Assembly: GCA_002256245.1 (NCBI GenBank)
Contig: NKIU01000001.1
Coordinates: 610,232 to 674,231 of the forward strand
Length of the DNA stretch: 64,000 nt
DNA from: Pseudorhodobacter sp. PARRP1
GTDB lineage: Bacteria > Pseudomonadota > Alphaproteobacteria > Rhodobacterales > Rhodobacteraceae
Direction of reading: 5' to 3'
The notes beneath the pieces are model-generated. The model made no database searches, was not told where the DNA came from, and saw only the letters and a list, made by a program, of their open reading frames with translations. This document shows, in pieces, positions 6,646 to 21,195 of the stretch (within the stretch, counting starts at the first letter, position 1; the number at the start of each line of letters is the position of its first letter). The position numbers were made by a program, and so were the translations under genes.

Positions 6646-6657
6646 GCATACGTATGC
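6646..6657. promoter_or_regulatory. LacI-type operator 1 (SnoaL-like gene)
   Basis: A perfect 12-base palindrome, GCATACGTATGC, with the central CG typical of LacI/GalR-family operators. It lies 85 bases upstream of the likely start of the SnoaL-like gene. The same motif recurs in front of the ABC importer gene (8003-8018) and in the hisD-like divergent promoter region (16478-16491 and 16650-16663). The LacI-family gene at 12437 is the obvious candidate regulator. Confidence 0.7.
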
Positions 6658-6741
6658 TTTGCGGTTCATTTTATAGCGCATCAGATAAACTTGGCCGGCA
6701 GCGCATGGGAACGCGCGGGCGAAACAGCGCAAAAGGCGAAC

Positions 6742-7905
6742 ATGGGCATGGCAGACAAGATAGACAGCGTGGCATCGAAAGCCGAAGTCGCGGCAGCACG
6801 GTCCGAGAAGGTGTTGCAGGTCGAGCGGCACGACTACCCCGATCTGGCCCCCGCCAACGGCAAGCGCACCCAAGCGATGCGGGGGTTTGACCCGATTTAC
6901 ACCGATATTGTCGATTACATCGTGCGCTGCACCCACAAGATCTGGGATGAGCGTGACATCGGCCTGATCTACAGCCACTACACCCACAACTGCGTGCTCT
7001 ATGGCACCACCGGCACGCTTTACACCCGCGAGGAAGTGGTGCGCGACACCATCCAGCGGCTGGTTTCCTTCCCCGAACGGCGCGGCATGGCCACGCAGGT
7101 GGTCTGGAAAGGTGATGAAAATTCAGGGTTTTACACCTCGCATCTGGTCACTGGCACCGGGCGGCACACGCAGAACGGCCACTTGGGCTATCCGACAGGC
7201 CGGACGTTCACCTCGCGCACCATCGCCGACTGCATGATCTATGAGAACAAGATTTACCGCGAATGGGTTGTCGCCGACACCACCGCTATCCTGCAACAGC
7301 TTGGGCTGGACGTGCAGGCCTATGCCGAGCGCATTGCCAGTGCTGCCTTTGATAAGGGCATGGTTTCATTGGATATTGGCGAAAATCGCCATATGATCGG
7401 GCAGTATCCACCCGAAGCCGAAGCCGATCTGTCCATCGCCTCGAACGAGATCGAACGGCATACTCTGCGCTGGCTACACGACGTGTATAACCGCAAGATG
7501 CTGGGCCAGATTGCCGATCTTTACGCCCCTACCGCGCAATATCACGGCCCGCTGATGGCGGAATTGTATGGCGTGGCCTCGATCATTCATCAAACGCTTG
7601 GTCTGATCGGCTCGCTGCCGGATGCGGCCTTCACGCCGCAGCACATCTGCACCACGCCATGCGAGGAAGGCGGCGAAAAGGTTGCCGTGCGCTGGATCAT
7701 GGAAGGGCACCATCTGGGTTACGGCATCCTCAACCATCTGGGTGCTCCGACCGGCAAGCGGGTGCAGATGATGGGGATCACGCATTTCCACTACAAGAAC
7801 GGCAAGATCGTTGATGAATGGCGGGTCTATGACGAAGCCTCAGCCCTTGTGCAGGTGAAACTGGCGCAGATGGCGGATCGCAAGGCCGCGATGCTGGCAG
7901 TCTAA
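6742..7905 (+). CDS. Tandem SnoaL-like (NTF2-fold) protein
   Basis: About 387 residues with two SnoaL/NTF2-like alpha+beta barrel domains in tandem. The first runs from GFDPIYTDIVDYIVRCTHKIW to about residue 205, the second from IERHTLRWLHDVYNRKM to about 370 and ends with the family-like FHYKNGKIVDEWRVYDE. The frame is open to 6496, but the upstream part crosses the operator and looks non-coding, so ATG 6742 (alternative ATG 6748) is preferred. SnoaL-fold proteins act as cyclases, isomerases or hydrolases without cofactors. The gene has its own operator, ends in a strong hairpin, and precedes the ABC importer it probably serves. The reaction is unknown. Confidence 0.8.
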   Translation: MGMADKIDSVASKAEVAAARSEKVLQVERHDYPDLAPANGKRTQAMRGFDPIYTDIVDYIVRCTHKIWDERDIGLIYSHYTHNCVLYGTTGTLYTREEVVRDTIQRLVSFPERRGMATQVVWKGDENSGFYTSHLVTGTGRHTQNGHLGYPTGRTFTSRTIADCMIYENKIYREWVVADTTAILQQLGLDVQAYAERIASAAFDKGMVSLDIGENRHMIGQYPPEAEADLSIASNEIERHTLRWLHDVYNRKMLGQIADLYAPTAQYHGPLMAELYGVASIIHQTLGLIGSLPDAAFTPQHICTTPCEEGGEKVAVRWIMEGHHLGYGILNHLGAPTGKRVQMMGITHFHYKNGKIVDEWRVYDEASALVQVKLAQMADRKAAMLAV

Positions 7906-7928
7906 GCCAAGCCCCGACACAGACTCAG

Positions 7929-7954
7929 ACGGCCCGCCCGATCAGGCGGGCCGT
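7929..7954 (+). terminator. Terminator after the SnoaL-like gene
   Basis: A 10-base-pair stem, ACGGCCCGCC (7929-7938) and GGCGGGCCGT (7945-7954), with a six-base loop, followed by TTGCATTTGC. It lies 24 bases after the SnoaL-like stop codon and separates that gene from the ABC importer operon. The downstream T-tract is interrupted, so termination may be partial. Confidence 0.75.
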
Positions 7955-8002
7955 TTGCATTTGCACCGCACAAGGCATTTTTTCTGACTCACGATATTAT
8001 GT

Positions 8003-8018
8003 TTGCAAACGTATGCAA
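8003..8018. promoter_or_regulatory. LacI-type operator 2 (ABC importer operon)
   Basis: TTGCAAACGTATGCAA is a 16-base palindrome with a single mismatched pair and a central CG. It lies 84 bases upstream of the solute-binding protein start and 49 bases after the SnoaL-gene hairpin. Its core matches operator 1 and differs by one base pair from perfect symmetry, so the same regulator probably binds both. Confidence 0.72.
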
Positions 8019-8101
8019 TAAATGTTTAGCTTTCCGCGCAGATGGCTTCCGGGCTGGCACGACCAGCCGCAGAGATGAAATCGCCAACAGAGGGGTGCGA
8101 T

Positions 8102-9355
8102 ATGAAAATCAGAATGACCAAGGCGCTGATGGCTGGCGCGGTAAGTGTGGCAGCCTTGCTGGCAGGTGGTGCGGCTTGGGCCGATTGCGGCATCACGGGC
8201 GCAGGCTCGGTCCGCATCCTGTCCAATGACTTCGAGGCGCTGCGCATCGTCAACGACGTGGCCGCAAGCTGTGCCACCGCAACCCTGACCGTCACCGCAA
8301 ACGCCACCGCCGAGCATAAGAACATCCAGGTCCCCGCGCTTTCGGCCAATCCCGCCGAATACACCGTCGCCGTTGTGGCCAACAACTCGATCGTGCCGTT
8401 GATGAACGATGGCCTGATCCGCCCGCTGGATGATCTTGTCGCCAAATACGGCGCCAGCCTGCAACCGAACCAGTTGATCAAGATCGACGGCAAGGTGATG
8501 GCGATTGCCTTCATGGGCAACGGCCAACACCTGTTCTATCGCAAGGACATTCTGGAAAAGGCCGGTGTCGCCGTGCCGACCAGCTATGAAGAAGTGCTGG
8601 CCGCAGCACAGGCGATCAAAGACAAGGGCCTGATGGAATACCCGCTGGCCGCCGCTGACAAACCCGGATGGGATCTGGCTGCCGAGTTTGTGAACATGTA
8701 TCTCGGCACTGGGGCCGCCTTCTTTGCCGATGGCTCGGCGGAACTCGCGATCGACAACGACAACGGCCGCAAGGTGCTGGAAACCATGCGCGCGATGACA
8801 GCCTTTATGAACCCCGACTATCTGACCTATGACGCGACCGAGTTGAACAAGGTTTGGGATGCCGGCAAGGTCGCCATGATGAACCAGTGGGGATCATTGG
8901 CCGCCGCGGCGATTGATCCGGCAACCGCCAGCGCCGAAGTCGCCGCAGGCACGGCTTTTGCCGCCGCCCCCACCATCAACGGCGGCACCATTCCGGCAGC
9001 AGCTTTGTGGTGGGATGGCTTCACCATCGCCGCCAACATCTCGGATGAAGACGCAGCGGCCTCGTTTCAAGCGATGGTCAAAGGCATCAGCCCGGAAACC
9101 GTCGCAGCGCATCCCGGCGTGGCAACCTGGCTGGTCGCAGGGTATGAGCCCGGCCCGACTGCCGTGGGCGTGATCGGCAATGCCAAGGGCGGGGCCAAGC
9201 CCTATCCGATGCAGCCCTACATGGGCCTGCTGCACACCGCGCTGCAAACCGAACTGGCCGACTTCATCGCTGGCAAGGAAGACGCCGATCAAGCACTGGC
9301 AGATGTGAAATCGGCCTATGATACTGCGGCGAAAGAAGGCGGCTTTCTGAAGTAA
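8102..9355 (+). CDS. ABC importer periplasmic solute-binding protein (family 1, sugar type)
   Basis: A 417-residue extracellular solute-binding protein that captures the substrate in the periplasm for the importer encoded downstream. ATG 8102 is chosen because it opens directly onto a signal peptide (MKIRMTKALMAG, then a hydrophobic run to GGAAWA, cleavage before DCG) and follows an AGAGGGG ribosome site. The mature protein has the two-lobed SBP pattern: FMGNGQHLFYRKDILEKAGV, KPGWDLAAEFVNMYLG, and KVAMMNQWGSLAAAA where a small Ala-rich loop faces the cleft. Relatives transport oligosaccharides, polyols or glycerol-phosphate compounds. The ligand cannot be read from sequence. Confidence 0.9.
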   Translation: MKIRMTKALMAGAVSVAALLAGGAAWADCGITGAGSVRILSNDFEALRIVNDVAASCATATLTVTANATAEHKNIQVPALSANPAEYTVAVVANNSIVPLMNDGLIRPLDDLVAKYGASLQPNQLIKIDGKVMAIAFMGNGQHLFYRKDILEKAGVAVPTSYEEVLAAAQAIKDKGLMEYPLAAADKPGWDLAAEFVNMYLGTGAAFFADGSAELAIDNDNGRKVLETMRAMTAFMNPDYLTYDATELNKVWDAGKVAMMNQWGSLAAAAIDPATASAEVAAGTAFAAAPTINGGTIPAAALWWDGFTIAANISDEDAAASFQAMVKGISPETVAAHPGVATWLVAGYEPGPTAVGVIGNAKGGAKPYPMQPYMGLLHTALQTELADFIAGKEDADQALADVKSAYDTAAKEGGFLK

Positions 9356-9364
9356 CCGCCCCCA

Positions 9365-9405
9365 AGGCTGCAAGGTGGTCTCCCCCGCCTTGCAGCCTGT
9401 TCCTT
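9365..9405 (+). terminator. Intercistronic stem-loop between SBP and permease genes
   Basis: An 11-base-pair perfect stem (AGGCTGCAAGG at 9365-9375 with CCTTGCAGCCT at 9388-9398), a 12-base loop and then GTTCCTTTT. It sits in the 65-base gap between the solute-binding protein and first permease genes. Such structures commonly stop a fraction of transcripts or protect the upstream mRNA end, so that the binding protein is made in excess over the membrane subunits. Confidence 0.75.
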
Positions 9406-9420
9406 TTGACCGGAGCCACC

Positions 9421-10452
9421 ATGCCGCATCGCACGTTTTTCGCCTTCATCTTTCCGTCCCTGCTGGCGATGGTGTTGTTCATCACCTTGCCGATCTTTTC
9501 GGTGGTGGCGCAGTCGTTCTTTGTCGAGCATGACGCCATTCTGACAACGGTTGAAAACTGCGGCCCGTTTGGCTGCGAAGCCGAAACCAAGGTCGATACC
9601 GAGGCGATGGCGAAACTGCGCGCAGAGGCCCCCATGGGCAAATTCGCAGGCTTTTCCAACTATCTGAACCGCAACCATCTGGCGGTGGCCGAGGTGAGTG
9701 CGATTTTCAGCGATAACAACGGCCCCCGCGACATCGGCGCGCGCCTGATGAACCTGCCGTTCTACCGCGCCTTGGCCTTCACGCTGGCCTATTGCTTTTT
9801 CGTCACGCCGCTGGCGATGGCCTTGGGCTTTGCGGTGGCGCTGGCAGTCAACACGATCCCGAAACTGCTGCGCGGCCCGACGATTTTCGTGTCGTTGCTG
9901 CCGATGATCATCACCCCCTTGGTCGGCTCGTTGATCCTGTCGTGGATGTTCAATCCGGCGGGCATCTTGGGCGCGGGCTTGCAGCATCTGACCGGCGACC
10001 CCACCCTGTCGCTGCGGGCGTCCCCGGCGCTGACATGGGCGGTTTTGCTGCTGTATGGTGTGTGGACCAACGGGCCGTTTTCCTTCGTGGTGTTCTATGC
10101 CGGCCTGCAGAGCGTGCCGCAGGATACGCTGGAAAGCGCCAAGATGGATGGCGCAACCCGCTGGCAAGCGGTGCGTTTCGTGATCATCCCGCATCTGATG
10201 CCGCTCGCGACCTTCGTCGCGCTGGTGCAGTTGATGGACAATTTCCGGGTGTTTGAACCCATCGTCGGTTTCTCGGCCGAAGCCAATGCAACCTCACTTT
10301 CATGGCTGGTTTACAACGATCTCGTCAGTCAGGATTCGGCACAGTTCGGTTCCGCCGGGGCGACTTCGGTGATGACGATTATCGGCGTGCTGATCCTGTT
10401 GGCCCCGGTCTTGCTGCGCACATGGCGCGATTTCAACCGGAAGGTGGTGTAA
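9421..10452 (+). CDS. ABC importer permease (MalF/UgpA type)
   Basis: An inner-membrane permease of 343 residues. The frame is open from TTG 9406, but ATG 9421 is the better start. After the first transmembrane helix (about residues 8-30) there is a long periplasmic insert that includes CGPFGCEAETKVD before the remaining helices. The cytoplasmic EAA loop that docks onto the ATPase is visible as DTLESAKMDGATRWQAVRFVIIPHL. It ends one base before the next permease starts. The large insert with two cysteines is unusual for sugar permeases and may help recognise the binding protein. Confidence 0.9.
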   Translation: MPHRTFFAFIFPSLLAMVLFITLPIFSVVAQSFFVEHDAILTTVENCGPFGCEAETKVDTEAMAKLRAEAPMGKFAGFSNYLNRNHLAVAEVSAIFSDNNGPRDIGARLMNLPFYRALAFTLAYCFFVTPLAMALGFAVALAVNTIPKLLRGPTIFVSLLPMIITPLVGSLILSWMFNPAGILGAGLQHLTGDPTLSLRASPALTWAVLLLYGVWTNGPFSFVVFYAGLQSVPQDTLESAKMDGATRWQAVRFVIIPHLMPLATFVALVQLMDNFRVFEPIVGFSAEANATSLSWLVYNDLVSQDSAQFGSAGATSVMTIIGVLILLAPVLLRTWRDFNRKVV

Positions 10453-10453
10453 C

Positions 10454-11326
10454 ATGGTGGATCGCCGCCCATTGGCCCTGCGCGGCCTGACAACCGGATT
10501 TCTGGCAGTCTGGCTGATCGCCGCCCTGTTCCCCTTCGCTTGGACAGTCTGGGGTAGCTTCAAGGTCGAGGCTGACTTCTTTTCCCGCGAAAGCTGGTGG
10601 TTCGCCATCGAAGGCACCCGCACCCAAGCCCAAACCGGCGGCAGCTTCACGCTGGCAGGCTATGAAGGCGCGTGGATCAAGAATGAATTCTGGAAGCCGG
10701 TGATCAACACGCTGATCGTCACCATCTGCGTCACCTGCATCTCGCTGTTTGTCGGCACCTTGGGCGGCTATGCCCTTGCGCGTTCTGGTCAACGCTATGC
10801 CTTCTGGGTGCTGATCGCGGCATTGGTGTTCCGCGCCATGCCGCATATCACGCTGGTTTCGGGCTATCTGTTGCCGTTCTTTCAGCTGAACATCTGGGGT
10901 GTGCTGCCCACCACGATCATCGTGCTGGTAGCGATCAACCAACCGTTTACGCTGTGGATGCTGCACAGCTTTTTCCTGTCGATCCCCAAGGATCTCGATG
11001 AAAGCGCGCTGGTCGATGGCTGCACCCGGTTTCAGGCCTTCCGCATGGTGATCATGCCGGTGATGTGGCCGGGGGTGGTTACCACGGGCCTGTTCAGCTT
11101 CCTGCTGGCTTATAACGACTTCGCTGTGACTTCGATGCTACTCAGCCAAGACAACCAAACCATGATCCCGAAGATCGCCAGCTTCCTCGGGTCGATCCAG
11201 AACGAAGGCAACGTGATGTATGCCGTGGCCGCCGTGGTCTCTGCCACCGTGCCTTTGTTCGTGCTGGTGCTGTTCTTCCAACGTCAAATCGTCTCGGGCC
11301 TGACCGCAGGCGCTGTGAAAGGGTAA
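10454..11326 (+). CDS. ABC importer permease (MalG/UgpE type)
   Basis: The second inner-membrane permease, 290 residues with six predicted helices. The EAA loop reads DLDESALVDGCTRFQAFRMVIMPV. It also carries an extra periplasmic stretch between helices 1 and 2 (around GTRTQAQTGGSFTLAGYEG), paralleling the insert in its partner. The gene starts one base after the first permease stop codon and ends three bases before the ATPase gene, so the three are co-translated. Confidence 0.92.
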   Translation: MVDRRPLALRGLTTGFLAVWLIAALFPFAWTVWGSFKVEADFFSRESWWFAIEGTRTQAQTGGSFTLAGYEGAWIKNEFWKPVINTLIVTICVTCISLFVGTLGGYALARSGQRYAFWVLIAALVFRAMPHITLVSGYLLPFFQLNIWGVLPTTIIVLVAINQPFTLWMLHSFFLSIPKDLDESALVDGCTRFQAFRMVIMPVMWPGVVTTGLFSFLLAYNDFAVTSMLLSQDNQTMIPKIASFLGSIQNEGNVMYAVAAVVSATVPLFVLVLFFQRQIVSGLTAGAVKG

Positions 11327-11329
11327 ATC

Positions 11330-12376
11330 ATGGCGCAAATTCGCCTTGTGAACGTCTGCAAACGCTGGGGCTCTTACGTCGGCGTCGATAACTTCAGTCT
11401 TGAGATCGCCGACGCCGAATTTCTGGTGCTGCTGGGGCCGTCGGGCTGCGGCAAGACCACGACCATGCGGATGATCGCGGGGCTAGAGGAGGCGACCAGC
11501 GGCGAAATCTGGATCGGCGACCGCATGGTCAACGGGATGGAGCCGAAAGACCGCGACATCTCGATGGTGTTCCAAAGCTATGGGCTTTACCCGAACCTGA
11601 CGGTCTATGAAAACATCCGCTTCCCGCTGCGGGTGCGCAACGTGCCGAAAGCCGAGCATGATATGCGGGTGATGCGCGCGGCGGAAATGGTGGAACTCGG
11701 CCCCCTGCTGGACCGGCGCCCTGCTGCCCTGTCGGGTGGCCAACGCCAACGCGTCGCGCTTGCCCGCGCGATTGTGCGTGAACCGAATGCGTTCCTGATG
11801 GATGAACCCCTGTCCAACCTTGATGCCAAACTGCGCGTCTCCACCCGTGCGCAGATCAAGAACCTGCACCACACCCTGAAAACTACGACGATCTACGTCA
11901 CCCACGATCAGATCGAAGCAATGACCCTCGCCGATCGCGTGGTGGTGATGAACAAGGGCGAAGTCCAGCAAGTCGGCACCCCCACCGAAATCTACGACCG
12001 CCCCGCCAACACCTTTGTCGCCAGCTTCATCGGATCGCCTGCGATGAACCTGATCTCCGGTCAGATCGCGGGCGGCACCTTCACCGCCGACAACATGCTG
12101 GTCGCAGGTGTTGCCGGAAACGGCCCCGCCACCCTCGGCTTCCGCGCCGAGGATGCCACCGTCGTGACCGAAGGCGGCAATATCTCCGCCCCGGTCTATG
12201 CGATGGAACTCTTGGGCGATGCCACGCTGGTATCCGTCCGCATCGGCCCGGCGCTGGTATCCGTCCGCGCGCCCAAGGATTTCCGCATCGAAATCGGCAG
12301 CCCCTTGCAAATCCGCGTGCCGCTCTCGGTCGTGCATCTGTTTGACGCCACCACCGGCGCACGGATCGCAGGATGA
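11330..12376 (+). CDS. ABC importer ATPase (MalK/UgpC type)
   Basis: The nucleotide-binding subunit, 348 residues. Visible motifs are Walker A GPSGCGKTT (about residues 38-46), the signature [16 protein letters not shown], Walker [15 protein letters not shown] and the switch histidine in YVTHDQIEAM. A C-terminal TOBE-type regulatory domain follows (about residues 235-348, including FRAEDATV). It powers import through the two permeases. The UgpC/MalK subclass serves carbohydrate-like substrates, which agrees with the binding protein type. Confidence 0.94.
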   Translation: MAQIRLVNVCKRWGSYVGVDNFSLEIADAEFLVLLGPSGCGKTTTMRMIAGLEEATSGEIWIGDRMVNGMEPKDRDISMVFQSYGLYPNLTVYENIRFPLRVRNVPKAEHDMRVMRAAEMVELGPLLDRRPAALSGGQRQRVALARAIVREPNAFLMDEPLSNLDAKLRVSTRAQIKNLHHTLKTTTIYVTHDQIEAMTLADRVVVMNKGEVQQVGTPTEIYDRPANTFVASFIGSPAMNLISGQIAGGTFTADNMLVAGVAGNGPATLGFRAEDATVVTEGGNISAPVYAMELLGDATLVSVRIGPALVSVRAPKDFRIEIGSPLQIRVPLSVVHLFDATTGARIAG

Positions 12377-12378
12377 CA

Positions 12379-12420
12379 GGCTTGCCCCCGCAAGCCCCTT
12401 TGACGCAAACTGCGCCAAAG
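12379..12420 (+). promoter_or_regulatory. Hairpin and inverted repeat upstream of the LacI-family gene
   Basis: Two structures fill the 60-base gap before the regulator. The first is a short stem GGCTTGC/GCAAGCC (12379-12396) followed by CCCTTTG, which resembles a weak terminator. The second is CTTTGaCGCA, three bases, TGCGcCAAAG (12398-12420), a long inverted repeat with one mismatched pair. The second directly precedes the ribosome site AGGGGGAG and could be an RNA hairpin or a distinct regulator site. It does not match the GCATACGTATGC operator. Confidence 0.45.
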
Positions 12421-12436
12421 CAGGGGGAGTGTTCTG

Positions 12437-13456
12437 GTGGCCAATGAAAAAGTGACATCGCTTGAGGTGGCAGCCCTTGCGGGCGTCAGCCAATCGGCGG
12501 TCAGCCGGGTGTTCACGCCCGGCTCATCCGTCAGCCAGAAAACCGCCGAAAAGGTGCGGGCAGCCGCTCTGCAACTCGGCTACCGCCCCAATGTGCTGGC
12601 GCGCTCGCTCAAATCCGGCAAAAGCCGCATCATCGGCTTGGTCGTGGCCTATCTGGAGAACTACTTCTACCCCGAGATGGTGGAACGCCTCTCCACCGAA
12701 CTGCAAAAAGTCGGCTACCATGTGCTGATTTTTCTGGCCCCACAAACCAGCGTCAATGTCGATCAGGTGATCCGCGAAATTCTGGATTATCAGGTGGATG
12801 GCATCGTGATGGCCTCAGTCTCGATGTCCTCCGATCTGGCCGCCCGCTGTCAGGAAACCGGCATCCCGGTGGTGCTGTTCAACCGCGCGCATGAGGATAA
12901 GAACCTCTCCTCTGTCACCTCCGACAATTTCGCGGGCGGCAAGGCCTTGGCCGATTACCTCTGCGCCACCGGCCACAGCCGCATCGCTTATATCGCGGGC
13001 TTTGCCGGCGCCTCGACCCAGGCCGACCGCGAGGCAGGCTTCCGCGCAGGTCTGGCCGAGGCCGGGCAAGACCTGTTCGCCCGCGCCGATGGCAATTTCG
13101 ATTACCGCACCGCACAAATGGCCGCGCGCACCCTGTTTGCCACCCAGCGCCGCCCCGATGCGGTGTTCGTCGCCAATGATCACATGGCCTTCGCGGTGAT
13201 GGATGTGCTGCGGTTTGAACTTGGCCTGCGCGTGCCCGAAGATGTCTCGGTCGTAGGCTTCGACGATGTGCCCCCCGCCGCATGGCCCGCCTATAACCTC
13301 ACCACGTATCGCCAGCGCGTCGATCAGATGGTGCAGGAAACCGTCGATATGCTGATGGCATGGATCGCCGCCGATCAGCCGAAAGTGTCCCGCGTGGTAT
13401 TGCCGGGCGAATTGGTGATCCGCAGCTCCACCCGCCGCATCGGGATCGCACGATGA
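12437..13456 (+). CDS. LacI/GalR-family transcriptional regulator
   Basis: A 339-residue regulator. The N terminus has the LacI helix-turn-helix (TSLEVAALAGVSQSAVSRVF) and hinge helix (RPNVLARSLKSGKS), followed by a periplasmic-binding-protein-like effector domain. The GTG start at 12437 is favoured by the ribosome site AGGGGGAG seven bases upstream. It sits between the importer genes and the AtzG-like gene, overlapping the latter by four bases. Four palindromes with a central CG across 6.6-16.7 kb are its probable operators. The effector is presumably the imported compound or an early product. Confidence 0.92.
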   Translation: MANEKVTSLEVAALAGVSQSAVSRVFTPGSSVSQKTAEKVRAAALQLGYRPNVLARSLKSGKSRIIGLVVAYLENYFYPEMVERLSTELQKVGYHVLIFLAPQTSVNVDQVIREILDYQVDGIVMASVSMSSDLAARCQETGIPVVLFNRAHEDKNLSSVTSDNFAGGKALADYLCATGHSRIAYIAGFAGASTQADREAGFRAGLAEAGQDLFARADGNFDYRTAQMAARTLFATQRRPDAVFVANDHMAFAVMDVLRFELGLRVPEDVSVVGFDDVPPAAWPAYNLTTYRQRVDQMVQETVDMLMAWIAADQPKVSRVVLPGELVIRSSTRRIGIAR

Positions 13457-13596
13457 CCGAAGCCGCCTTCCGCGCCCGTCTGGCCGCCTTGGGCCTGACG
13501 CTGGACGACAAGGCCTTCGCCGCCGCATGGGCCGGGGCGCAGCACCTGCGGGCCGAGATCGCCCGCGTTGAGAAATGGTTAACAACCCAGCCATGA
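13453..13596 (+). CDS. AtzG-like small protein (DUF4089)
   Basis: A 47-residue protein too short for most gene finders: MTEAAFRARL at the start and RAEIARVEKWLTTQP at the end, with a helical pattern. It fits the AtzG/DUF4089 family, the small subunit found in complex with the amidase-signature enzyme AtzE. The start is fixed by an ATGA overlap with the regulator stop, and its own stop overlaps the amidase ATG the same way. The tight packing supports a stable two-subunit enzyme. In AtzEG the substrate is 1-carboxybiuret; here the substrate is unknown. Confidence 0.78.
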   Translation: MTEAAFRARLAALGLTLDDKAFAAAWAGAQHLRAEIARVEKWLTTQP

Positions 13597-14951
13597 TTGA
13601 GCCCCTCGACCTGCCCCTGCAAGACGCCGCAGCCGCCCTACGTGCAGGCACCCTCACCGCCCGCGCTTTGACCGAGGCTGCGCTGACCCGCTGCGCATTG
13701 CGCAATCCGCATCTGCACGCCGTCACCCATCTGAACCCACAGGCCTTGACCGAAGCCGACCGCGCCGATGCCCTACTGGCGGCAGGTCAAGGCGGGCCAC
13801 TGTGCGGAATACCATTTCTGGTCAAAGACTTGATCGACGTCGCAAGCCTGCCCGCCACCAGCGGTTCCGCCGTGCTGGCAGGGCGGATTGCCGATACCGA
13901 TGCCCCCGCCGTCGCCCTGCTCCGCGCCCAAGGTGCGGTGGTGCTGGGCAAGGTGGCCACCTACGAATTCGCCATGGTCGGCCCCGATCTGACCCTGCCC
14001 GACCCACCCGCCCGCAATCCGTGGAACCGCGCCCATATCACTGGGGGGTCGTCGTCCGGTTCCGCCTCGGCGGTGGCAGGGGGCCTCGTGCGGATGGCAC
14101 TTGGCACCGATACGGGTGGCTCGATCCGCAGCCCTTCGGCCTATTGCGGCTGTGTCGGGCTGAAACCCAGCTACGAACGTGTCGCCCGCGCAGGGGCCTT
14201 CCCGCTGTCACCCGCGCTCGATCACACCGGCCCGATTGCCGCCTCGGTCGCCGATGCGGCGCTGATGCTGGATGCGATCACCGCCAACCCTTCCGCATGG
14301 CGACCCGCCAGCGGCAAGCTAACCCAAGGCGCGCGCGGCCTGCGCATCGGTTACGCCCGCGATTGGTTTGCCGCTGATCCGCAAGCCGCCCCCGCCCTGA
14401 TCCACGCGATGGACGATGCCGCCGCACAGCTTTCCATGCTGGGCGCAAGCATCACCCCAATCCCCCTCCCCGACTACGCGCCCTACGAGGCCGCCGCCTC
14501 GGTGATCCTGCATGCCGAGGCTTTGGCCGAACACCGCGATCTGATCCGCGACAAGGCCGCGCTTTATGGCCGCCCCGTGCTGCAATGTCTGGCCTTCGGT
14601 GCCGCGATTGACGCCGATGATCTGGCGCAAGCCCGCCTTGCCCAAACCAGCCTGACCGCCGCAATGCTCGCGGCGATGGACGGCTTTGATCTGATCCTGA
14701 CCGCCACCACCCTCACCCCCGCGCTGCCGTTTTCCGCCTTTGACGGCGAAAAAGCGGTGTGGACACCGATGCGCACCATCGCCTTCAACCTCACCGGTCA
14801 ACCTGCCATTTCGGTGCCAATCGGCTTTGACGCAGGCCTGCCGCTGGGGATGCAACTGGTGGGCCGCATCGGCTGCGAAGACCTGATCTGCGCCACAGCC
14901 CACGCGTTTGAACAGTCCACCGACCATTCCTGTCAGCGCCCAAGCTTCTAA
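13593..14951 (+). CDS. Amidase-signature hydrolase (AtzE-like)
   Basis: A 452-residue serine hydrolase that cleaves amide bonds. The Ser-cisSer-Lys triad is complete: K78 in GIPFLVKDLID, S153 in GGSSSGS and S177 in GTDTGGSIRSP. ATG 13593 is preferred over ATG 13575 because it forms an ATGA overlap with the AtzG-like gene. The adjacent AtzG-like subunit makes an AtzE-type heterodimer likely rather than GatA of the amidotransferase. In this locus it probably removes an amide or carbamoyl group from the imported compound. The substrate is not deducible. Confidence 0.88.
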   Translation: MIEPLDLPLQDAAAALRAGTLTARALTEAALTRCALRNPHLHAVTHLNPQALTEADRADALLAAGQGGPLCGIPFLVKDLIDVASLPATSGSAVLAGRIADTDAPAVALLRAQGAVVLGKVATYEFAMVGPDLTLPDPPARNPWNRAHITGGSSSGSASAVAGGLVRMALGTDTGGSIRSPSAYCGCVGLKPSYERVARAGAFPLSPALDHTGPIAASVADAALMLDAITANPSAWRPASGKLTQGARGLRIGYARDWFAADPQAAPALIHAMDDAAAQLSMLGASITPIPLPDYAPYEAAASVILHAEALAEHRDLIRDKAALYGRPVLQCLAFGAAIDADDLAQARLAQTSLTAAMLAAMDGFDLILTATTLTPALPFSAFDGEKAVWTPMRTIAFNLTGQPAISVPIGFDAGLPLGMQLVGRIGCEDLICATAHAFEQSTDHSCQRPSF

Positions 14952-14984
14952 CTCCGGCAGTTCCAGACGATCCCGCAGGGGGGT

Positions 14985-15009
14985 CCGGGGGGACGTGACG
15001 TCCCCCCGG
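14985..15009. terminator. GC-rich hairpin downstream of the amidase gene
   Basis: A perfect inverted repeat CCGGGGGGACG (14985-14995), loop TGA, CGTCCCCCCGG (14999-15009), 33 bases after the amidase stop. No T-run follows on the plus strand, so it may work as a transcript-end stabiliser or a Rho-assisted stop. It is the first of three consecutive palindromes in this convergent intergenic region. Confidence 0.6.
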
Positions 15010-15039
15010 CGTTGTCAAAAGATAGAAACGCCTAAATTG

Positions 15040-15080
15040 AAAAAAACGTCAAAAACCACAACATATTGTGGTTTTTGACG
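15040..15080 (-). terminator. Rho-independent terminator of the minus-strand HisD-like gene
   Basis: A 15-base-pair perfect stem (CGTCAAAAACCACAA at 15047-15061 with TTGTGGTTTTTGACG at 15066-15080) and a four-base loop. On the minus strand the stem is followed by a run of T residues (complement of 15040-15046). It lies 47 bases beyond the stop codon of the HisD-like gene at 15127, so it is a classical intrinsic terminator for that gene. Confidence 0.85.
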
Positions 15081-15104
15081 CATAATCTTGAGTAAAAGCA
15101 CAAG

Positions 15105-15124
15105 TCTGTCCCCGCGGGGACAGA
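15105..15124. repeat. Perfect 20-base palindrome next to the HisD-like stop codon
   Basis: TCTGTCCCCG followed by its exact reverse complement CGGGGACAGA, ending two bases before the stop codon of the minus-strand HisD-like gene. With no loop bases it would need to open to form an RNA hairpin. It could be a DNA-binding site or part of a compound terminator with the two hairpins beside it. Confidence 0.6.
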
Positions 15125-15126
15125 AA

Positions 15127-16422
15127 TTACCCCCGCTGCATCCGATCCAGACGCAGTTGGGCCGCCCGGCGATGGCCCTCAAGCCCTTCGCTTGCCGCCT
15201 GCCGTGCCGCGGGCGGTGCGACCTGATCGACCCCATGCGGCTCCAGCCATTGATGCGTGGCGATCTTGACATAGGCCCCCACCCACAACCCGCCGGTATA
15301 GCGCCCCGCCGCCATCGTCGGCAGCGTGTGGTTGGTGCCCGAGCATTTGTCGGAATAGACCACGCTGGCCAATTCCCCGATGAACAAAGACCCATAGTTG
15401 CGCAGCTTTTTGGCAAAGCCATGCGCATCCGCCGTATGCACCTGAAGGTGTTCCGCCGCGATGAAATCCGAATAGGCGATCATCGCCTCTTCATCCTCAC
15501 ACACCGCAATCTCGCCATAGTCGCGCCAAGCCGGTTCCGCCACATGCGCGGTGGACAGCGTTTTCATCTGGCGTTCCACCTCGGTCACCACAGCCTCGGC
15601 CAGCGGGCGGTGGGTGGTGATCAGGCCGACGCGGGTGCGCACGTCATGTTCCGCCTGCGCCAACAGGTCGGTCGCGATCATCTCGGCATCGCCGGTTTCA
15701 TCCGCCAGAATGTAGATCTCGGACGGCCCCGCCAACTGATCAATCCCCACCGGGCCAAACACCTGCCGCTTGGCCTCGTTCACAAAGGCATTGCCCGGCC
15801 CCATGATCTTCATCACCCCCGGCACGGTCTCGGTGCCAAACGCCATCGCCGCAATCGCCTGCGCGCCGCCAATGCGGAAAATCCGATCCGCGCCCGACAG
15901 ATGGCACCCCGCCACCATCGCCTCATGCGCGTTCGGCGGCAGGCACGCGATCACCTCGGGCACGCCCGCAACCTTGGCCGGAACGATGGTCATGATCGGC
16001 GCCGAGAGCAGCGGAAACCGCCCCCCCGGCACATAGCAGCCCACCCGATCAATCGGGATCACCCGATGCCCCATGAACACACCCGGCAGCGGCTCAATAT
16101 CCAGCGGCAGAATCGTCGCCAACTGCGCCTCGGCAAAACGGCGGACGTTGGCGATGGCGAATTCGGTATCGCGGCGAGTCTGCGGATCAAGCGCCGCAAC
16201 TGCGGCCTCGCGCTGCGCCAGGCTTACCTCAAACACCTGCAGGTCCGATTTGTCGAACTGCGCCGAATACTCCCGCACCGCGGCATCGCCACGGGCTTTC
16301 ACATCGGCCAGAACCTTGGCGACCAACTCGGCCACAGGCTTGTTGTCACTTTCCGCGTTGCGCGTAGGCGACTTCACCCACGAGATTTTGGCGGCAGGAT
16401 AGGCTTCGGACAGGTTCGACAT
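15127..16422 (-). CDS. Histidinol-dehydrogenase-like (HpsN-like) dehydrogenase 1
   Basis: A 431-residue member of the HisD superfamily, which oxidises a primary alcohol to a carboxylate in two NAD-dependent steps. Zinc ligands match those of HisD: Q256 and H259 in LLAQAEHD, D358 and H417 in EGLEGH. The catalytic pair E324-H325 lies in AAEHLQVH, and the SGTNHTLPT loop is present. The start has a strong AAAGGAG site. A catabolic HpsN-type role is favoured over histidine synthesis because a second copy is divergent to it and both lie in an inducible uptake locus. HpsN itself oxidises 2,3-dihydroxypropane-1-sulfonate, but the substrate here is unproven. Confidence 0.85.
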
Positions 16423-16477
16423 GTTTGCTCCTTTCAGGCCAGCAAGGGCCTTTGCTTTGCCGATAATCTAAACAATC

Positions 16478-16491
16478 TGCATACGATTGCA
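16478..16491. promoter_or_regulatory. LacI-type operator 3 (HisD-like gene 1)
   Basis: TGCATACGATTGCA resembles the other operators, with the central CG and intact outer half-sites, but has two mismatched pairs near the centre. It lies 56 bases upstream of the minus-strand HisD-like start codon, in the 255-base divergent promoter region. The weaker symmetry suggests lower affinity. Confidence 0.55.
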
Positions 16492-16649
16492 ACGGCATCT
16501 TTTGGCCCACTACCTGATTCAACCGCAAACCCGCACAATCAAACGGGTTTTACATTTGAACAGACAGTTGCAGGCGACGTTTTGCCAAATAATTCATCGA
16601 TTCCATCACAAGCACCTTGCCATCCCGCACCAGCTGGGTTTATCAATAT

Positions 16650-16663
16650 TGCAAACGTATTCA
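16650..16663. promoter_or_regulatory. LacI-type operator 4 (HisD-like gene 2 operon)
   Basis: TGCAAACGTATTCA matches operator 2 at all but one position. It ends 14 bases before the start codon of the plus-strand HisD-like gene, so a bound repressor would lie across the transcription start or early leader. It lies 172 bases from operator 3, a distance at which a LacI-type tetramer could loop the divergent promoters. Confidence 0.62.
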
Positions 16664-16677
16664 CTGCCGAGGATGAA

Positions 16678-17988
16678 ATGGCTGTAACCTGGCTCAAACG
16701 TGGCAAGCCCGAAACCGAACGCGCCGCCGACGATGCGAAAACCAGCGCCACGGTCGAATCTGTGCTGGCCGATATCGAGGCGCGCGGCGATGCTGCCATC
16801 CGCGATCTGTCGGTGAAATTTGACCGCTACGATCCGCCCAGCTTCCGGTTGACCCCGTCCGAGATCGAAGCCGCGATGCAAAAGGTCGCCGCGCGCGATA
16901 TGGAAGACATCCGTTTTGCGCAGGCCCAAATCCGCCGCTTTGCCGAAGCCCAACGCGCCAGCATGACGGATATCGAGGTTGAGACTCTGCCCGGCGTCTT
17001 CCTTGGCCATCGCAATATCCCGGTGCAGTCGGTCGGCTGCTATGTGCCGGGCGGCAAGTTTCCCATGGTGGCATCGGCCCATATGTCGGTGCTGACGGCT
17101 TCTGTGGCGGGCGTGCCGCGCATTGTGGCCTCCGCCCCGCCGGTGAATGGCGCGCCGCATCCGGCGATTGTGGCGGCGATGGCCTTGGGCGGCGCGCATG
17201 AAATCTACGTCTTGGGCGGGATGCAGGCGGTGGGTGCGATGGCGATTGGCACCGAAACCATCACGCCGGTGGATATGCTCGTCGGCCCCGGCAACGCCTT
17301 TGTGGCCGAGGCCAAGCGGCAGCTTTATGGCCGCGTCGGCATTGATCTGTTTGCAGGCCCGACAGAGACCATGGTGATCGCCGATGATACGGTGGACGCC
17401 GAGTTGTGCGCGACCGACCTGTTGGGGCAGGCAGAGCACGGCTATAACTCGCCTGCCGTCTTGCTGACCAACAGTCGCAAACTGGCCGAGGCGACGCTGG
17501 TGGAAATCAACCGCTTGCTGCAAATCCTGCCGACCGCCGCGACGGCCTCGGTCAGTTGGGCCGATTACGGCGAGGTGATCGTCTGCGACAGCTATGATGA
17601 GATGCTGGCGGTCGCCAATGACATCGCATCGGAACATGTGCAGGTGATGACCGACCGTGACGATTGGTTCCTGCAGAACATGCACAGCTATGGCGCTTTG
17701 TTTCTTGGCCCGCGCACCAATGTCGCCAATGGCGACAAGGTGATCGGCACCAACCACACCCTGCCGACCAAGAAAGCTGGCCGCTACACGGGTGGGCTTT
17801 GGGTTGGCAAGTTCCTGAAAACCCACAGCTATCAGCGCATCACAACCGACGCCGCAGCGGCTGAAATCGGCGCTTACGGCTCACGGCTGTGCATGTTGGA
17901 AGGCTTTGTCGGCCATGCCGAGCAATGCAACATCCGCGTGCGCCGCTACGGCGGGCAGAACGTGCCTTACGGGGCGGCGGCGGAATGA
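16678..17988 (+). CDS. Histidinol-dehydrogenase-like (HpsN-like) dehydrogenase 2
   Basis: A second HisD-superfamily alcohol dehydrogenase, 436 residues. All expected zinc and catalytic residues are seen: Q251 and H254 (LLGQAEHG), E319-H320 (IASEHVQVM), D353 and H360 ([13 protein letters not shown]), H413 (GFVGHAEQ). It is clearly diverged from the copy at 15127, so the two probably act on different alcohols or stereoisomers. The frame stays open far upstream, antisense to the first copy, but ATG 16678 is the start because homology begins there and the operator lies just before it. It heads a five-gene operon, overlapping the SDR start by four bases. Confidence 0.86.
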
Positions 17989-18749
17989 GCCTGCCGCGCA
18001 CGCCTTCGTTCCGGCTGGACGGTCGCCGCGCGCTGATTGCGGGGGCGTCTTCTGGCATCGGGCTGGCCTGCGCGGTGGCTTTGGCCGAACAGGGCGCGCA
18101 TGTAACCCTGTGCGCCCGCCGCGCGCCCGAACTGGCTAATTTGGTTGAGGACCTGCGGGCCGAGGGCTTTGCCGCCCATGCCCTGCCCTTGGATATCACC
18201 GACCCCACCGCGACCGAAGCCGCACTGGCAGCCCTGCCCGCGTTCGACATTCTGGTGAACTCGGCAGGTGGCGCGCGCCACAGCCCCGCGATTGAAACCA
18301 CGCCCGAGGATTTCGATTTCGCCACCAACCTGAACCTGCGCGCGGCCTATTTCCTGACCCGCGCCGTCGCCGCCCGGCTGATTGCCGAAGGTAAGCCCGG
18401 CAGCCTGATCAACATCACCAGCCAGATGGCGCATGTCGGCGGCATCGACCGCGCGGTTTATGCCGCCACCAAGCACGCGGTTGAAGGCATGACGAAAAGC
18501 ATGGCCATCGAATGGGGCCCGCACGGCATCCGCGTCAACACCATCGCCCCCACCTTTATCCGCACCGCCCTGACCGCCGCCACCTTCGCCAATCCCGAAC
18601 GGGCGGCTTGGATTGCCAGCAAGATCAAACTGGGCCGCGTCGGCGAAGTCACCGACATCATGGGGGCCGTCGCCTTCCTTGCCTCGGATGCTGCCAGCCT
18701 GATCACCGGAACCTCTCTTCTTATTGATGGCGGCTGGACCGCCGATTAA
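17985..18749 (+). CDS. Short-chain dehydrogenase/reductase
   Basis: A classical SDR of 254 residues. The NAD(P)-binding GASSGIG is at residues 20-26, NSAGG near 92-96, and the catalytic S146, Y159 and K163 (YAATK) are intact. ARR after the second strand may favour NADP, which is tentative. The start is set by an ATGA overlap with the HisD-like gene. In DHPS catabolism SDR enzymes work beside HpsN to interconvert stereoisomers through a ketone. A similar ketone-forming or epimerising role here is inference. Confidence 0.9.
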
Positions 18750-18764
18750 CCGCAAAGGTGCCCT

Positions 18765-19733
18765 ATGACTCCGCAAGAAATGGAAGCCCGCATCGTCCGC
18801 TATGGCGATCTGCGCCCCTGCAAGACCGCGTTTATCGACGCGCATACCCCCGGCTCGAACCGCAAGGAAAACTTCACCATCATCGGCGGTGGCGTGTCGG
18901 AAAGCCCGGATCAGCACGTGCATATCCGCGAAACCCCCGGCTTTAACATCGGCGCGGCAGGCCAGCCCCCCGGTTGCCGCAACAGCCTGCACACCCATCG
19001 CACCGCCGAAGTGTTCTTCGTGCTAAAGGGCCGTTGGCGGTTTTTCTGGGGCCGCTACGGCACGGCCGGAGAGTTCATTGCCGAAGAGGGCGATATCTTC
19101 AACATCCCCACCGGTATCTTCCGCGCCTTTGAAAATGTCGGCACCGACTATGGGATGATCATGGCGATCCTTGGCGGTGATGACGCGGGCGGCGGTGTGG
19201 TTTGGGCACCGCAGGTGATCACCGATGCCAAGGATTACGGCCTGATCCTGGGCAAAAACGGCAAGCTTTATGACAGCAAAAAGGGCCAGACCCTGCCCGA
19301 AGGCATCCCGCCGATGCCGCTGCTGAATGATGAGGAGCTGAAAGCCTTCCCCGAACCCACCACCGCCGAGGTGATCCCGAACTGCGTCGCGCGCTATTGG
19401 GATCTGATGGCTTTGTCCGATCGTCAGCCCGCCAAGGTGATCGGCGCGGCAGGCAAACTGCGTGACCGTCCGGGGTTTGAGGTGGAATTCCTGTCGCGCA
19501 ACTCGATCCCCGATACCCCCTACAGCCTTGATCAGCATGAGATTTTGATGCCGATGCGTGGCCACTGGCGCATGGCTTGGGCCGGCGGCACCACGGCGCT
19601 GAACCCCGGCGATACCGCAGCCATTCCGCCCGGCCTTGAACACAGCCTGACGCCCGCGATGACAGGAGAAGCCTCGCTTTACCGGGTGATCAGCACCGAG
19701 GATCAGGCGGGCGCGACCGGGCGTTTGCTGTAG
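18765..19733 (+). CDS. Bicupin protein
   Basis: A 322-residue protein with two cupin domains. The first (about 60-135) shows a metal-binding pattern, SLHTHRTAEVFFVLKGRWRF, with later G-D-x-F-x-I-P-T. The second (about 240-310) has LDQHEILMPMRGHWRMAW with NPGDTAAIPPGLEH. Bicupins include dioxygenases, isomerases and decarboxylases that use Fe, Mn or Ni. It follows the SDR by 15 bases and precedes the hydrolase by three, so it is part of the same pathway. The exact reaction cannot be assigned. Confidence 0.82.
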   Translation: MTPQEMEARIVRYGDLRPCKTAFIDAHTPGSNRKENFTIIGGGVSESPDQHVHIRETPGFNIGAAGQPPGCRNSLHTHRTAEVFFVLKGRWRFFWGRYGTAGEFIAEEGDIFNIPTGIFRAFENVGTDYGMIMAILGGDDAGGGVVWAPQVITDAKDYGLILGKNGKLYDSKKGQTLPEGIPPMPLLNDEELKAFPEPTTAEVIPNCVARYWDLMALSDRQPAKVIGAAGKLRDRPGFEVEFLSRNSIPDTPYSLDQHEILMPMRGHWRMAWAGGTTALNPGDTAAIPPGLEHSLTPAMTGEASLYRVISTEDQAGATGRLL

Positions 19734-19736
19734 GCC

Positions 19737-20408
19737 ATGCTGCTGCTGATCCCCGGCATGATGTGTGACGCGCGGATGTGGGGCGACCTGTCTGGGTTGC
19801 CCCCTGCGCTGCACGCCGACATCACCGGGGCCGATAGCGTGGGCGCTCTTGCCGCCGCTATCCTGCAACAGGCCCCCGAAAGCTTTGATCTGGCGGGCCT
19901 GTCGATGGGCGGCATCGTCGCGATGGAGGTGCTGCGCCAAGCCCCTCAGCGCGTCCGCCGTCTTGCCCTGCTCGACACCAACCCGCGCGCCGAAGTGCCC
20001 GCGGTGCAAGCCCTGCGCGCCCCACAAATCGCCCGTGCACTGGCTGGCGATCTGGCGGGGCTGATGCGCAGTATCATCCCGGGCTACTTCGCCACGCCGC
20101 GCCCAGACCTCGCCGCACTCTGCCTCGACATGGCGCTGGATCTGGGGGGCAAGACCTTCGCCCGCCAATCGCGCGCGTTGCATGACCGCCCCGACCAGAC
20201 CGCCACCCTCGCCGTGTTCAAAGGCCCGGCCTTGGTGCTGATGGGCGCGCAGGACGCGCTTTGCCCGCGCGACCGGCATGATCAAATGCACAGCCTGATG
20301 CCACAATCGCGGCTGACAATCATCGCCGATGCGGGTCATATACCGCCACTCGAAAACCCGCAGGCCACCCAAGCCGCGTTGCTGAACTGGCTTGATCAAC
20401 CGTGTTAG
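19737..20408 (+). CDS. Alpha/beta-hydrolase fold protein
   Basis: A 223-residue alpha/beta hydrolase, on the small side for the family. The nucleophile elbow GLSMGG gives S56. The acid is likely the Asp of GAQDALCPRD and the base the His of ADAGHIPPLE near the C terminus. The oxyanion loop is LIPGMMCDARMW at the N terminus. It probably cleaves an ester, thioester or lactone in the pathway. It is packed three bases after the bicupin and seven bases before the aldolase gene. Confidence 0.85.
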   Translation: MLLLIPGMMCDARMWGDLSGLPPALHADITGADSVGALAAAILQQAPESFDLAGLSMGGIVAMEVLRQAPQRVRRLALLDTNPRAEVPAVQALRAPQIARALAGDLAGLMRSIIPGYFATPRPDLAALCLDMALDLGGKTFARQSRALHDRPDQTATLAVFKGPALVLMGAQDALCPRDRHDQMHSLMPQSRLTIIADAGHIPPLENPQATQAALLNWLDQPC

Positions 20409-20415
20409 GAACCCA

Positions 20416-21195
20416 ATGACCCCGCTGCATCAGCTTTTCGCCAACCAAGCCAAAGCCGTCAACGGCTGGTGTGCGATCCCGTCGCCGATCACCGCCGAGA
20501 TCATGGCGCGGCAGGGCTTTGATCTGATGACCGTTGATCTGCAACACGGCCTGATCGACTATCAAACCGCCCTCACCATGCTGCAAGTGATGCAGGGCCT
20601 TCCCGCCCCGGTGATGGTCCGCGTGCCGTGGAACGAGCCGGGGATCATCGCCAAAACGCTGGATGCGGGCTTTGCCGGGCTGATCTGCCCGATGGTCAAC
20701 ACGGTTGAAGATGCACAACGCTTGGTGCAAGCCACCCGCTATGCGCCGCTGGGCGCGCGGTCTTTTGGCCCCACCCGCGCCAATCTGTTGCACGGCGCAA
20801 CCTATGCCCAACACGCCAACACCGCGATATCGGTCTTTGCGATGATTGAAACCCGCGAGGCGCTTGGCAATCTTGATGCGATCCTTGCGGTTGAGGGCAT
20901 CGACGGCGTCTATGTCGGGCCGTCTGACCTTGGGCTGTCCATGGGATACCAACCCACGCTCGAGCCGACCGCCCCCGAAGTGCTTGACGCGATTGGTGAA
21001 ATCGCCGCCCGCACCAAAGCCGCAGGGCGCTTTGCGGGCATTCACACAGGCTCGCCCGAGATGATCCGGCGCGTGTTCGCCCAAGGGTATGATTTCGCCT
21101 CGCTGCTGACCGATGCACGGATGTTTGCCTCGGCCATCGCCACCCAGTTGGCAGCGGTGAAGCAGACCAGTGTCGAGGTGGTGAAGGGCTACTGA
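20416..21195 (+). CDS. HpcH/HpaI-type class II aldolase
   Basis: A 259-residue metal-dependent aldolase of the HpcH/HpaI family. Family features are the general-base His in TVDLQHGLID (about residue 43), the arginine in VRVPWNEPG, the metal-binding Glu in FAMIETREAL and the Asp in VGPSDLGLSMGY. Members split 2-keto-3-deoxy acids to pyruvate and an aldehyde. ATG 20416 is chosen over an in-frame TTG at 20392. As the last gene of the operon it is the likely carbon-splitting step, feeding pyruvate to central metabolism. Confidence 0.9.
   Translation: MTPLHQLFANQAKAVNGWCAIPSPITAEIMARQGFDLMTVDLQHGLIDYQTALTMLQVMQGLPAPVMVRVPWNEPGIIAKTLDAGFAGLICPMVNTVEDAQRLVQATRYAPLGARSFGPTRANLLHGATYAQHANTAISVFAMIETREALGNLDAILAVEGIDGVYVGPSDLGLSMGYQPTLEPTAPEVLDAIGEIAARTKAAGRFAGIHTGSPEMIRRVFAQGYDFASLLTDARMFASAIATQLAAVKQTSVEVVKGY

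Follow-up and report, generated by a model that had tools for sequence, protein, structure and literature searches.

The 64,000-nucleotide window analyzed here, from Pseudorhodobacter sp. PARRP1 (contig NKIU01000001.1, positions 610,232 to 674,231), carries a locus of thirteen protein-coding genes and four close copies of a palindrome, TTGCAWACGTWTGCAA, that precede its predicted transcription units. One gene encodes a LacI-family regulator, others encode a sugar-type ATP-binding cassette (ABC) importer, and two encode enzymes of the HpsN/HisD dehydrogenase family (HisD1 and HisD2). Together these elements probably constitute a local LacI regulon for importing a polyhydroxylated compound and breaking it down oxidatively. 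Recurrence of the palindrome, the regulator and the core enzymes in distant bacteria makes the regulon look both real and widespread. Positions below are those of the window unless another locus (L numbers) or genome (G numbers) is named.

Palindromes and the LacI-family regulator

Four palindromes had been reported in an earlier note on this DNA, made from its letters alone, and all are present at the places given there (Table 1). An exact copy of TGCAWACGTWTGCA occurs only at 8004-8017, and each of the other three sites has one mismatch. At this stringency the 64 kb contain four sites compared to a mean of 0.04 in 200 first-order Markov sequences, and chance palindromes are rejected. When three mismatches are allowed, seven sites are found where 7.8 are expected, and the pattern is no commoner than chance. 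Across the 4.35-Mb genome, TGCAWACGWWTGCA with at most one mismatch occurs at these four places only; a reversed control pattern occurs at one.

The columns of a promoter-like CTTGC ... TA pair near operator 4 are invariant or nearly so in 12 distinct HisD1-HisD2 intergenic regions, and the pair was not among the elements listed by a consensus promoter scan. Because it lies just upstream, operator 4 would fall approximately at the transcription start, as fits a repressor site. The LacI gene follows the importer genes, and the regulator is therefore predicted to control its own expression through operator 2.

Related loci were taken as the best 80 of 530 stretches encoding relatives of the locus's two-cupin protein (bicupin), which came from 592 candidates found in named genomes with the bicupin as query. 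Judged by record titles, they belong mostly to Rhodobacterales and Hyphomicrobiales. Among these loci, which are not independent (L003 and L004 are from one genome; L026/L027, L037/L040 and L052/L053 are apparent near-copies), 79 sites with at most one mismatch occur in 52, as opposed to a mean of 0.58 for 300 scrambled half-sites. Among the scrambles, the highest count (47 sites) comes from WGCATAC, itself a near-copy of the motif. Most sites (64 of 79) fall near a cluster gene's called start, at most 300 bp before it or 250 bp after it, and most of the other 15, read by eye, precede transporter genes. A logo of 80 distinct sites reads TTGCAWACGTWTGCAA and is symmetric with a central CG.

The palindrome is also kept at orthologous positions, a point on which the earlier note had made its proposal depend. 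In an alignment of 13 HisD1-HisD2 gaps (one a duplicate, leaving 12 distinct), operator columns have a mean conservation of 94% versus 57% for the remainder. When 242 stretches of fourteen columns are ranked by conservation, operator 4 is first and operator 3 eighth. The tandem-SnoaL gene of other loci also has upstream sites, with two mismatches in L132 and one each in L134 and L135. Core loci, defined by the presence of both HisD2 and this LacI, make up 42 of the 54 loci of at least 20 kb (from the 80), as counted by tblastn at thresholds of our own; the flanks of the fetched loci cut some clusters short. A palindrome with at most one mismatch is present in 35 of the 42 core loci and in 6 of the 12 other loci of this length.

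The exact motif was also sought in an even draw of 198 genomes of the family; 27 contain it, and one contains its reversed control. Bicupin genes are present in 84 of these genomes, 79 of them at E<=1e-100 (hand count), and 24 of the 27 motif genomes carry a bicupin at this level (Fisher P=2e-8). In 17 of the 27, no more than 13 kb of one contig separates motif and bicupin; in G056, one of the other ten, a related cluster has its solute-binding gene ~105 bp from the site. A locus from another family of the class (L137, genome G074) has three copies of TGCATTCGAATGCA and a partial cluster composed of HisD1, tandem SnoaL, a 37% identical bicupin, a MetE-like protein (F7) and the hydrolase.

The earlier note placed a LacI-family gene inside the locus, and the encoded protein indeed matches the Pfam models LacI and Peripla_BP_3, for the DNA-binding and sugar-binding domains. 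Its candidate operator is an even palindrome with a central CG, lies upstream of the units and is conserved in orthologues. Local sugar-catabolic regulons of the LacI family share this form of palindrome, sites near operons, a regulator gene in the locus, and importer and catabolic genes; the operators of 1173 of the 1303 regulators in PMC4052901 are even palindromes centered on CG. Recognition helices in the 80 loci were collected with a search pattern, and those of the genome and of distant loci were read directly. The helix is VSQSxVSR in all 57 LacIs that matched the pattern, preceded by G except in L058, where the residue is K. Nine LacI DNA-binding domains are encoded in the genome, with the key residue pairs VT, EM, IA, RA, RA, QS, VA, PT and IA, and only the LacI of this locus has QS.

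The same helix is found together with forms of the palindrome in distant bacteria, including another phylum. LacIs from Novosphingobium (L200), Pantoea (L201), Deinococcus (L206) and Klebsiella (L207) keep GVSQSAVSR at 36-48% overall identity, and all four loci have intergenic palindromes with zero to two mismatches from the motif. These are TGCATTCGAATGCA twice in L200 (two mismatches), TGCATGCGTATGCA (one mismatch) and TGAATACGTATTCA (two) in L201, exact TGCATACGTATGCA twice, at 7342 and 7619, in L206 (a Deinococcus sp. KNUC1210 plasmid), and TGCATTCGAATGCA once in L207 (two mismatches). The wider form TGCAWWCGWWTGCA has a mean of 0.00-0.02 in Markov copies of these loci. Four loci that encode HisD2 relatives without this LacI (L205, L208, L209 and L210) have no intergenic counterpart of the palindrome; the one match in L205, with two mismatches, falls within a GH43 gene. 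The near-invariance of the recognition helix and the lack of an intergenic operator in these four loci support a pairing of the LacI protein with the palindrome, to which it is predicted to bind. Relatives of HisD2, the short-chain dehydrogenase (SDR), hydrolase, aldolase, bicupin and LacI are all encoded in the Pantoea, Klebsiella and Deinococcus loci, with a shorter cupin in Deinococcus. The two exact TGCATACGTATGCA copies in L206, a locus of another phylum with related enzymes, suggest that the regulator and its operators have spread horizontally together.

Core enzymes and the two HisD-family clades

Protein family scans (Pfam, NCBIfam) covered ten of the thirteen locus proteins, and the two permeases and the ATPase were named by tblastn matches to annotated relatives (Table 1). 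The scanned ten comprise a tandem SnoaL, a solute-binding protein, LacI, an amidase, two HisD-family proteins, an SDR, a cupin, an alpha/beta hydrolase and an HpcH/HpaI aldolase, in agreement with the gene list that had been drawn up from the sequence alone. One name on that list, an 'AtzEG-like' amidase, stands only as far as the amidase family. The protein scores 263.3 bits against the NCBIfam AtzE model, below the cut-off of 461, and the likeness to AtzE is loose.

Table 1. Genes, predicted operators and promoter-like element of the locus
Feature	Position	Strand	Remarks
Operator 1 (predicted), TGCATACGTATGCT	6645..6658	.	1 mismatch; upstream of tandem-SnoaL gene
Tandem SnoaL-like (NTF2-fold, 'ester cyclase') protein, 387 amino acids	6742..7905	+	Pfam SnoaL, two stretches; start from alignment
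Operator 2 (predicted), TGCAAACGTATGCA	8004..8017	.	exact; upstream of importer
Solute-binding protein, sugar-type ABC importer	8102..9355	+	Pfam SBP_bac_1; 31/42 core loci
ABC importer permease 1	9421..10452	+	relative in 36/42 core loci; L113 annotation 'sugar ABC transporter permease'
ABC importer permease 2	10454..11326	+	36/42 core loci
ABC importer ATPase (UgpC type)	11330..12376	+	32/42 core loci; L113 annotation ugpC
LacI-family regulator	12437..13456	+	Pfam LacI and Peripla_BP_3; recognition helix GVSQSAVSR
Amidase-signature hydrolase (suggested accessory module)	13575..14951	+	Pfam Amidase E=8e-90
HisD1, HpsN/HisD-family dehydrogenase, own clade	15127..16422	-	motif GRFPL
Operator 3 (predicted), TGCATACGATTGCA	16478..16491	.	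1 mismatch; in front of HisD1
Promoter-like CTTGC ... TA pair, predicted -35/-10 of HisD2 operon	16616..16647	+	just upstream of operator 4
Operator 4 (predicted), TGCAAACGTATTCA	16650..16663	.	1 mismatch; between promoter-like element and HisD2 start codon
HisD2, HpsN/HisD-family dehydrogenase, own clade	16678..17988	+	motif GKFPM
Short-chain dehydrogenase (SDR)	17985..18749	+	Pfam adh_short_C2; start overlaps HisD2 end
Bicupin, 322 amino acids	18765..19733	+	Pfam Cupin_2; one putative metal site (HxH...E), N-terminal domain
Alpha/beta hydrolase, PcaD/MenH-like	19737..20408	+	Pfam Abhydrolase; 34/42 core loci
HpcH/HpaI-type aldolase	20416..21195	+	Pfam HpcH_HpaI; RraA-type protein instead in 27/42 core loci

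SDR and bicupin genes are present in all 42 core loci, the bicupin by construction because it was the fetch query, and the SDR gene is not always adjacent to HisD2. A small tandem SnoaL-like protein is encoded in 30 of these loci, the window-type tandem SnoaL in four, and a tripartite ATP-independent periplasmic (TRAP) permease in one. The aldolase is of the RraA type in 27 and the HpcH type in eight; no locus has both and seven have neither. HisD1 and the amidase occur together in 14 core loci, and the amidase occurs alone in one. These distributions suggest a core made up of HisD2, SDR, bicupin, alpha/beta hydrolase and aldolase, with HisD1 and the amidase as an accessory module. The module to which the window-type tandem SnoaL belongs is uncertain because its gene often lies outside the fetched DNA. 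In five loci with a bicupin and no core (L041, L055, L062, L068 and L077), ten neighboring proteins were scanned and none is related to the core enzymes. The metabolic reading in the earlier note thus retains a five-enzyme core, to which HisD1 and the amidase appear to be an add-on; we still only infer that a single compound is handled by all twelve genes.

The MetE-like F7 is encoded in 25 of the 42 core loci (its family in 45 of 86 sequences; for example, L001:10979-12100) and is absent from the window. Its gene is often located between those for the bicupin and the hydrolase, and the protein carries HIC and DCG motifs that we take to resemble the zinc ligands of methionine synthase.

Four PF00815 genes are present in the genome: HisD1, HisD2, an HpsN-type gene with the motif GRYSH (L121), and a gene that groups with biosynthetic HisD (L118). 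Judged by family scores alone, HisD1 and HisD2 would both pass for HisD, because the pair exceeds the NCBIfam hisD cut-off of 243.8 with 442 and 426 bits. Their best solved-structure matches are to HpsN (374 and 372 bits for HisD2, 338 and 307 bits for HisD1). A role in histidine biosynthesis is rejected, since the genome has its own HisD elsewhere (L118).

The metal and catalytic residues of HpsN and HisD are named, and the HpsN-specific histidine is assigned to the motif GRY[AS]H, in parts of PMC11382572. Among 79 HisD-family open reading frames (ORFs) found by signature in the cluster loci, this position reads GKFPM in 60, GRFPL in 15, GRYPL in three, GKYPM in one and GRY[AS]H in none. With other genomes added, 100 distinct sequences were typed by motif as HisD2 (61), HisD1 (20), HisD (17) and HpsN (2). 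QAEH and the EH and DK pairs are conserved in all 81 HisD1- and HisD2-type sequences, which also have NHTLPT and GGLWV in common; NHVLPT is found in 17 of 17 HisD sequences, and NHVLPT with GGLSV in both HpsN sequences. A C-terminal His pattern is seen in 71 of the 81, with the other ten outside that check. In a tree of 48 of the 100 sequences, which includes two HpsN rows and some long branches, the four types form four clades. HisD1, HisD2 and HpsN split from HisD at 100/100, and HisD2 joins the two HpsN rows at 96/93.

Simple residue markers set HisD1 and HisD2 apart from HpsN and HisD. With HpsN (8v35, R-DHPS 3-dehydrogenase, and 8wwe, (R)-DHPS dehydrogenase, where DHPS is 2,3-dihydroxypropane-1-sulfonate) they share the fold family, the Gln/His metal ligands, the catalytic Glu-His and the Asp-Lys pair. 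In contrast to HpsN, the sulfonate-recognizing His is Met in HisD2 and Leu in HisD1, NHTLPT and GGLWV replace NHVLPT and GGLSV, and the clades are separate. Histidinol dehydrogenase has PF00815 and the catalytic Glu-His in common with them, but has Asp-Tyr where they have Asp-Lys. Because the residues are conserved and the recognition His is replaced, HisD1 and HisD2 likely keep a zinc- and NAD+-dependent conversion of primary alcohol to acid and have changed substrate.

The same genome may include a second arrangement of this general kind. At L131 (G000:C24:950000-969500), a GRYSH HpsN-type gene and a second LacI gene (helix RA) lie ~2 kb apart, with a distant alpha/beta-hydrolase match between them. 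This is possibly a DHPS locus arranged somewhat like the present one.

In the bicupin, H76, H78 and E82 are invariant in 77 aligned sequences, and its second metal site looks to have been lost. Its predicted model has a mean predicted local distance difference test (pLDDT) score of 81, and Foldseek returns bicupin-type matches. The best hits, oxalate decarboxylase and quercetinase bicupins, share the two-cupin fold, but identity is 12-19% among the hits listed and template modeling (TM) scores are ~0.5 or below. An AlphaFold2 model of the tandem SnoaL (mean pLDDT 88) has generic single-domain SnoaL-type matches in the PDB, and a search of viral contigs found no tandem-SnoaL gene. The best solved-structure match of the HpcH aldolase is hydroxyketoacid aldolase 6r62, and the RraA relatives match 4-carboxy-4-hydroxy-2-oxoadipate aldolase models weakly, with 26 bits against 304.

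Proposed route and alternative substrates

In the mechanism that we favor, LacI would bind four copies of TTGCAWACGTWTGCAA, one for each predicted transcription unit: the tandem SnoaL; the ABC importer, LacI and amidase; HisD1; and HisD2, SDR, bicupin, hydrolase and aldolase. Bound LacI would block RNA polymerase until a sugar-like inducer, entering through the importer, released it. The products of the units would then take up a polyhydroxylated compound and degrade it by a non-phosphorylative, oxidative route. HisD2, with zinc and NAD+, would oxidize a terminal CH(OH)-CH2OH group to a hydroxy acid in a four-electron step, and the SDR would oxidize the neighboring hydroxyl to give a 2-oxo acid. 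The SnoaL-like protein, bicupin and alpha/beta hydrolase might isomerize, dehydrate or ring-open the carbon skeleton, and the HpcH-type aldolase (elsewhere RraA-type) would release pyruvate or hydroxypyruvate. The amidase and HisD1, perhaps with the tandem SnoaL, may let a second compound, related to the substrate and bearing an amide, enter this route. Diol to hydroxy acid to 2-oxo acid to aldol cleavage would be the simplest order for the gene products present.

A more detailed version of this proposal is advanced tentatively, as one slightly easier to doubt than to accept. It holds that the locus represents a novel, horizontally spread catabolic pathway of Proteobacteria and Deinococcota in which two new HisD-fold subfamilies of four-electron alcohol dehydrogenases (GKF/YPM and GRF/YPL) oxidize a polyol, branched sugar or cyclitol at its primary alcohol. 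Bicupin, SnoaL and hydrolase would remodel the product, an exchangeable HpcH or RraA aldolase would provide the exit, and one deeply conserved LacI helix-operator pair would govern expression. The words 'hisD' and 'histidinol' do not occur in the main text of PMC4052901, and no description of this operator and gene set was found in the parts consulted; its supplements and RegPrecise were outside the search. Likewise, no description of the gene set was found in open PubMed Central (PMC) literature, a search that left aside subscription papers, supplements and RegPrecise.

A single regulator with its operator and a five-enzyme core recur in soil, plant-associated, pond and marine bacteria. Many genes labeled histidinol dehydrogenase divide into two clades, apparently catabolic, that stand apart from HisD and HpsN and have simple residue markers. 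Identifying the inducer would put a name to a carbon source for whose use many Rhodobacterales and rhizobia seem to be equipped.

Several observations weigh against the proposed regulon and route. Many loci are closely related, and the locus counts are thus not independent. Seven of the 42 core loci are without a site at one mismatch or fewer: L015 and L031 have two-mismatch sites, the fetched DNA of L009, L024, L046 and L061 begins inside the importer genes, and no palindrome site was found in L030. The LacI helix of L063 differs (GVSQPTVSR) and fell outside the search pattern, so that the VSQSxVSR count is 57 of at least 58. Operator-like matches also lie inside genes, at 10239 in L206 (HisD2) and 5307 in L207 (helicase). 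The mutual exclusion of HpcH and RraA aldolases is confounded by kinship, because the HpcH loci are Rhodobacter-like. The SnoaL, bicupin and F7 steps have no firm chemical role. In addition, HisD2 relatives of 64-66% identity sit in aromatic-type catabolic clusters, together with an SDR (L205, L208 and L210), and one of 69% sits elsewhere, all without this LacI. HisD2 alone does not fix the substrate, since its relatives are found in such different settings. The aromatic-type clusters also encode an FAD-dependent oxygenase/oxidoreductase, a VOC protein and a fumarylacetoacetate hydrolase, with a glycosidase gene in L205 and L210.

Among other substrates, a C4-type acid sugar, or a sugar acid degraded to oxo-tetronate, is the strongest contender, although it is unlikely. 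A related bicupin-aldolase-hydrolase triplet adjoins tetronate genes on two plasmids: otnK and an aldolase gene accompany it both in Salinivibrio (L204) and in Thioclava (L202), and L204 has otnI as well. The TRAP permease of L204 shares 60% identity with its counterpart in the Roseibium cluster L113. However, only two of the seven distant bicupin loci (L200-L204, L206 and L207) have tetronate genes. No otn gene, and so no such kinase or isomerase, is found among the ten scanned window proteins, and the other three genes belong to the importer, which is of the sugar ABC type.

A cyclitol-like or branched C7 substrate, such as one of the gadusol/mycosporine type, is improbable. Here HisD would oxidize a hydroxymethyl group on a tertiary alcohol, and the RraA/HpcH aldolase would cleave a branched hydroxy-oxo acid, as the weak RraA matches to the oxoadipate aldolase models might indicate. 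F7, with what we take to be zinc ligands, could demethylate such a compound, and a cupin and a C-C hydrolase would presumably suit ring opening. Yet Sinorhizobium, Pantoea and Deinococcus carry the set too, and plants are not known to make mycosporines. A search of the open PMC literature for mycosporine breakdown yielded nothing pertinent.

There is very little to commend a reading of the locus as a DHPS (sulfonate) catabolic cluster with HisD1 and HisD2 as HpsN enzymes, even though HpsN provides their best solved-structure matches, HisD2 groups with both HpsN rows and the Asp-Lys pair of HpsN is kept throughout. According to parts of PMC11131964, the HpsN gene often shares its operon with transporter and regulator genes and with hpsO, which encodes an SDR. 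However, the HpsN histidine is missing from all 79 HisD-family ORFs found by signature in the cluster loci, a separate GRYSH gene (L121) lies ~2 kb from another LacI gene in the genome, and no sulfolyase family is found among the ten scanned proteins. The absent histidine and the separate HpsN-type gene are the grounds for rejecting it. Just as hard to credit is a palindrome bound by another regulator with LacI as a passenger, which is rejected because the recognition helix is identical across two phyla at 36-48% overall LacI identity, the four HisD2 loci without this LacI have no intergenic operator, and central-CG palindromes are typical of LacI proteins (PMC4052901).

Neighboring deformylase-like genes

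Downstream of the locus, positions 22105-23611 of the window hold three genes in a row on the minus strand that we take, from their motifs, to be polypeptide-deformylase-like. Two of them encode EGCLS(L/I)P and HE(L/I)DH. The copy at 22105-22608 has EEASPNLPG and HQIDH in place of these motifs, and has therefore probably lost its metal site.

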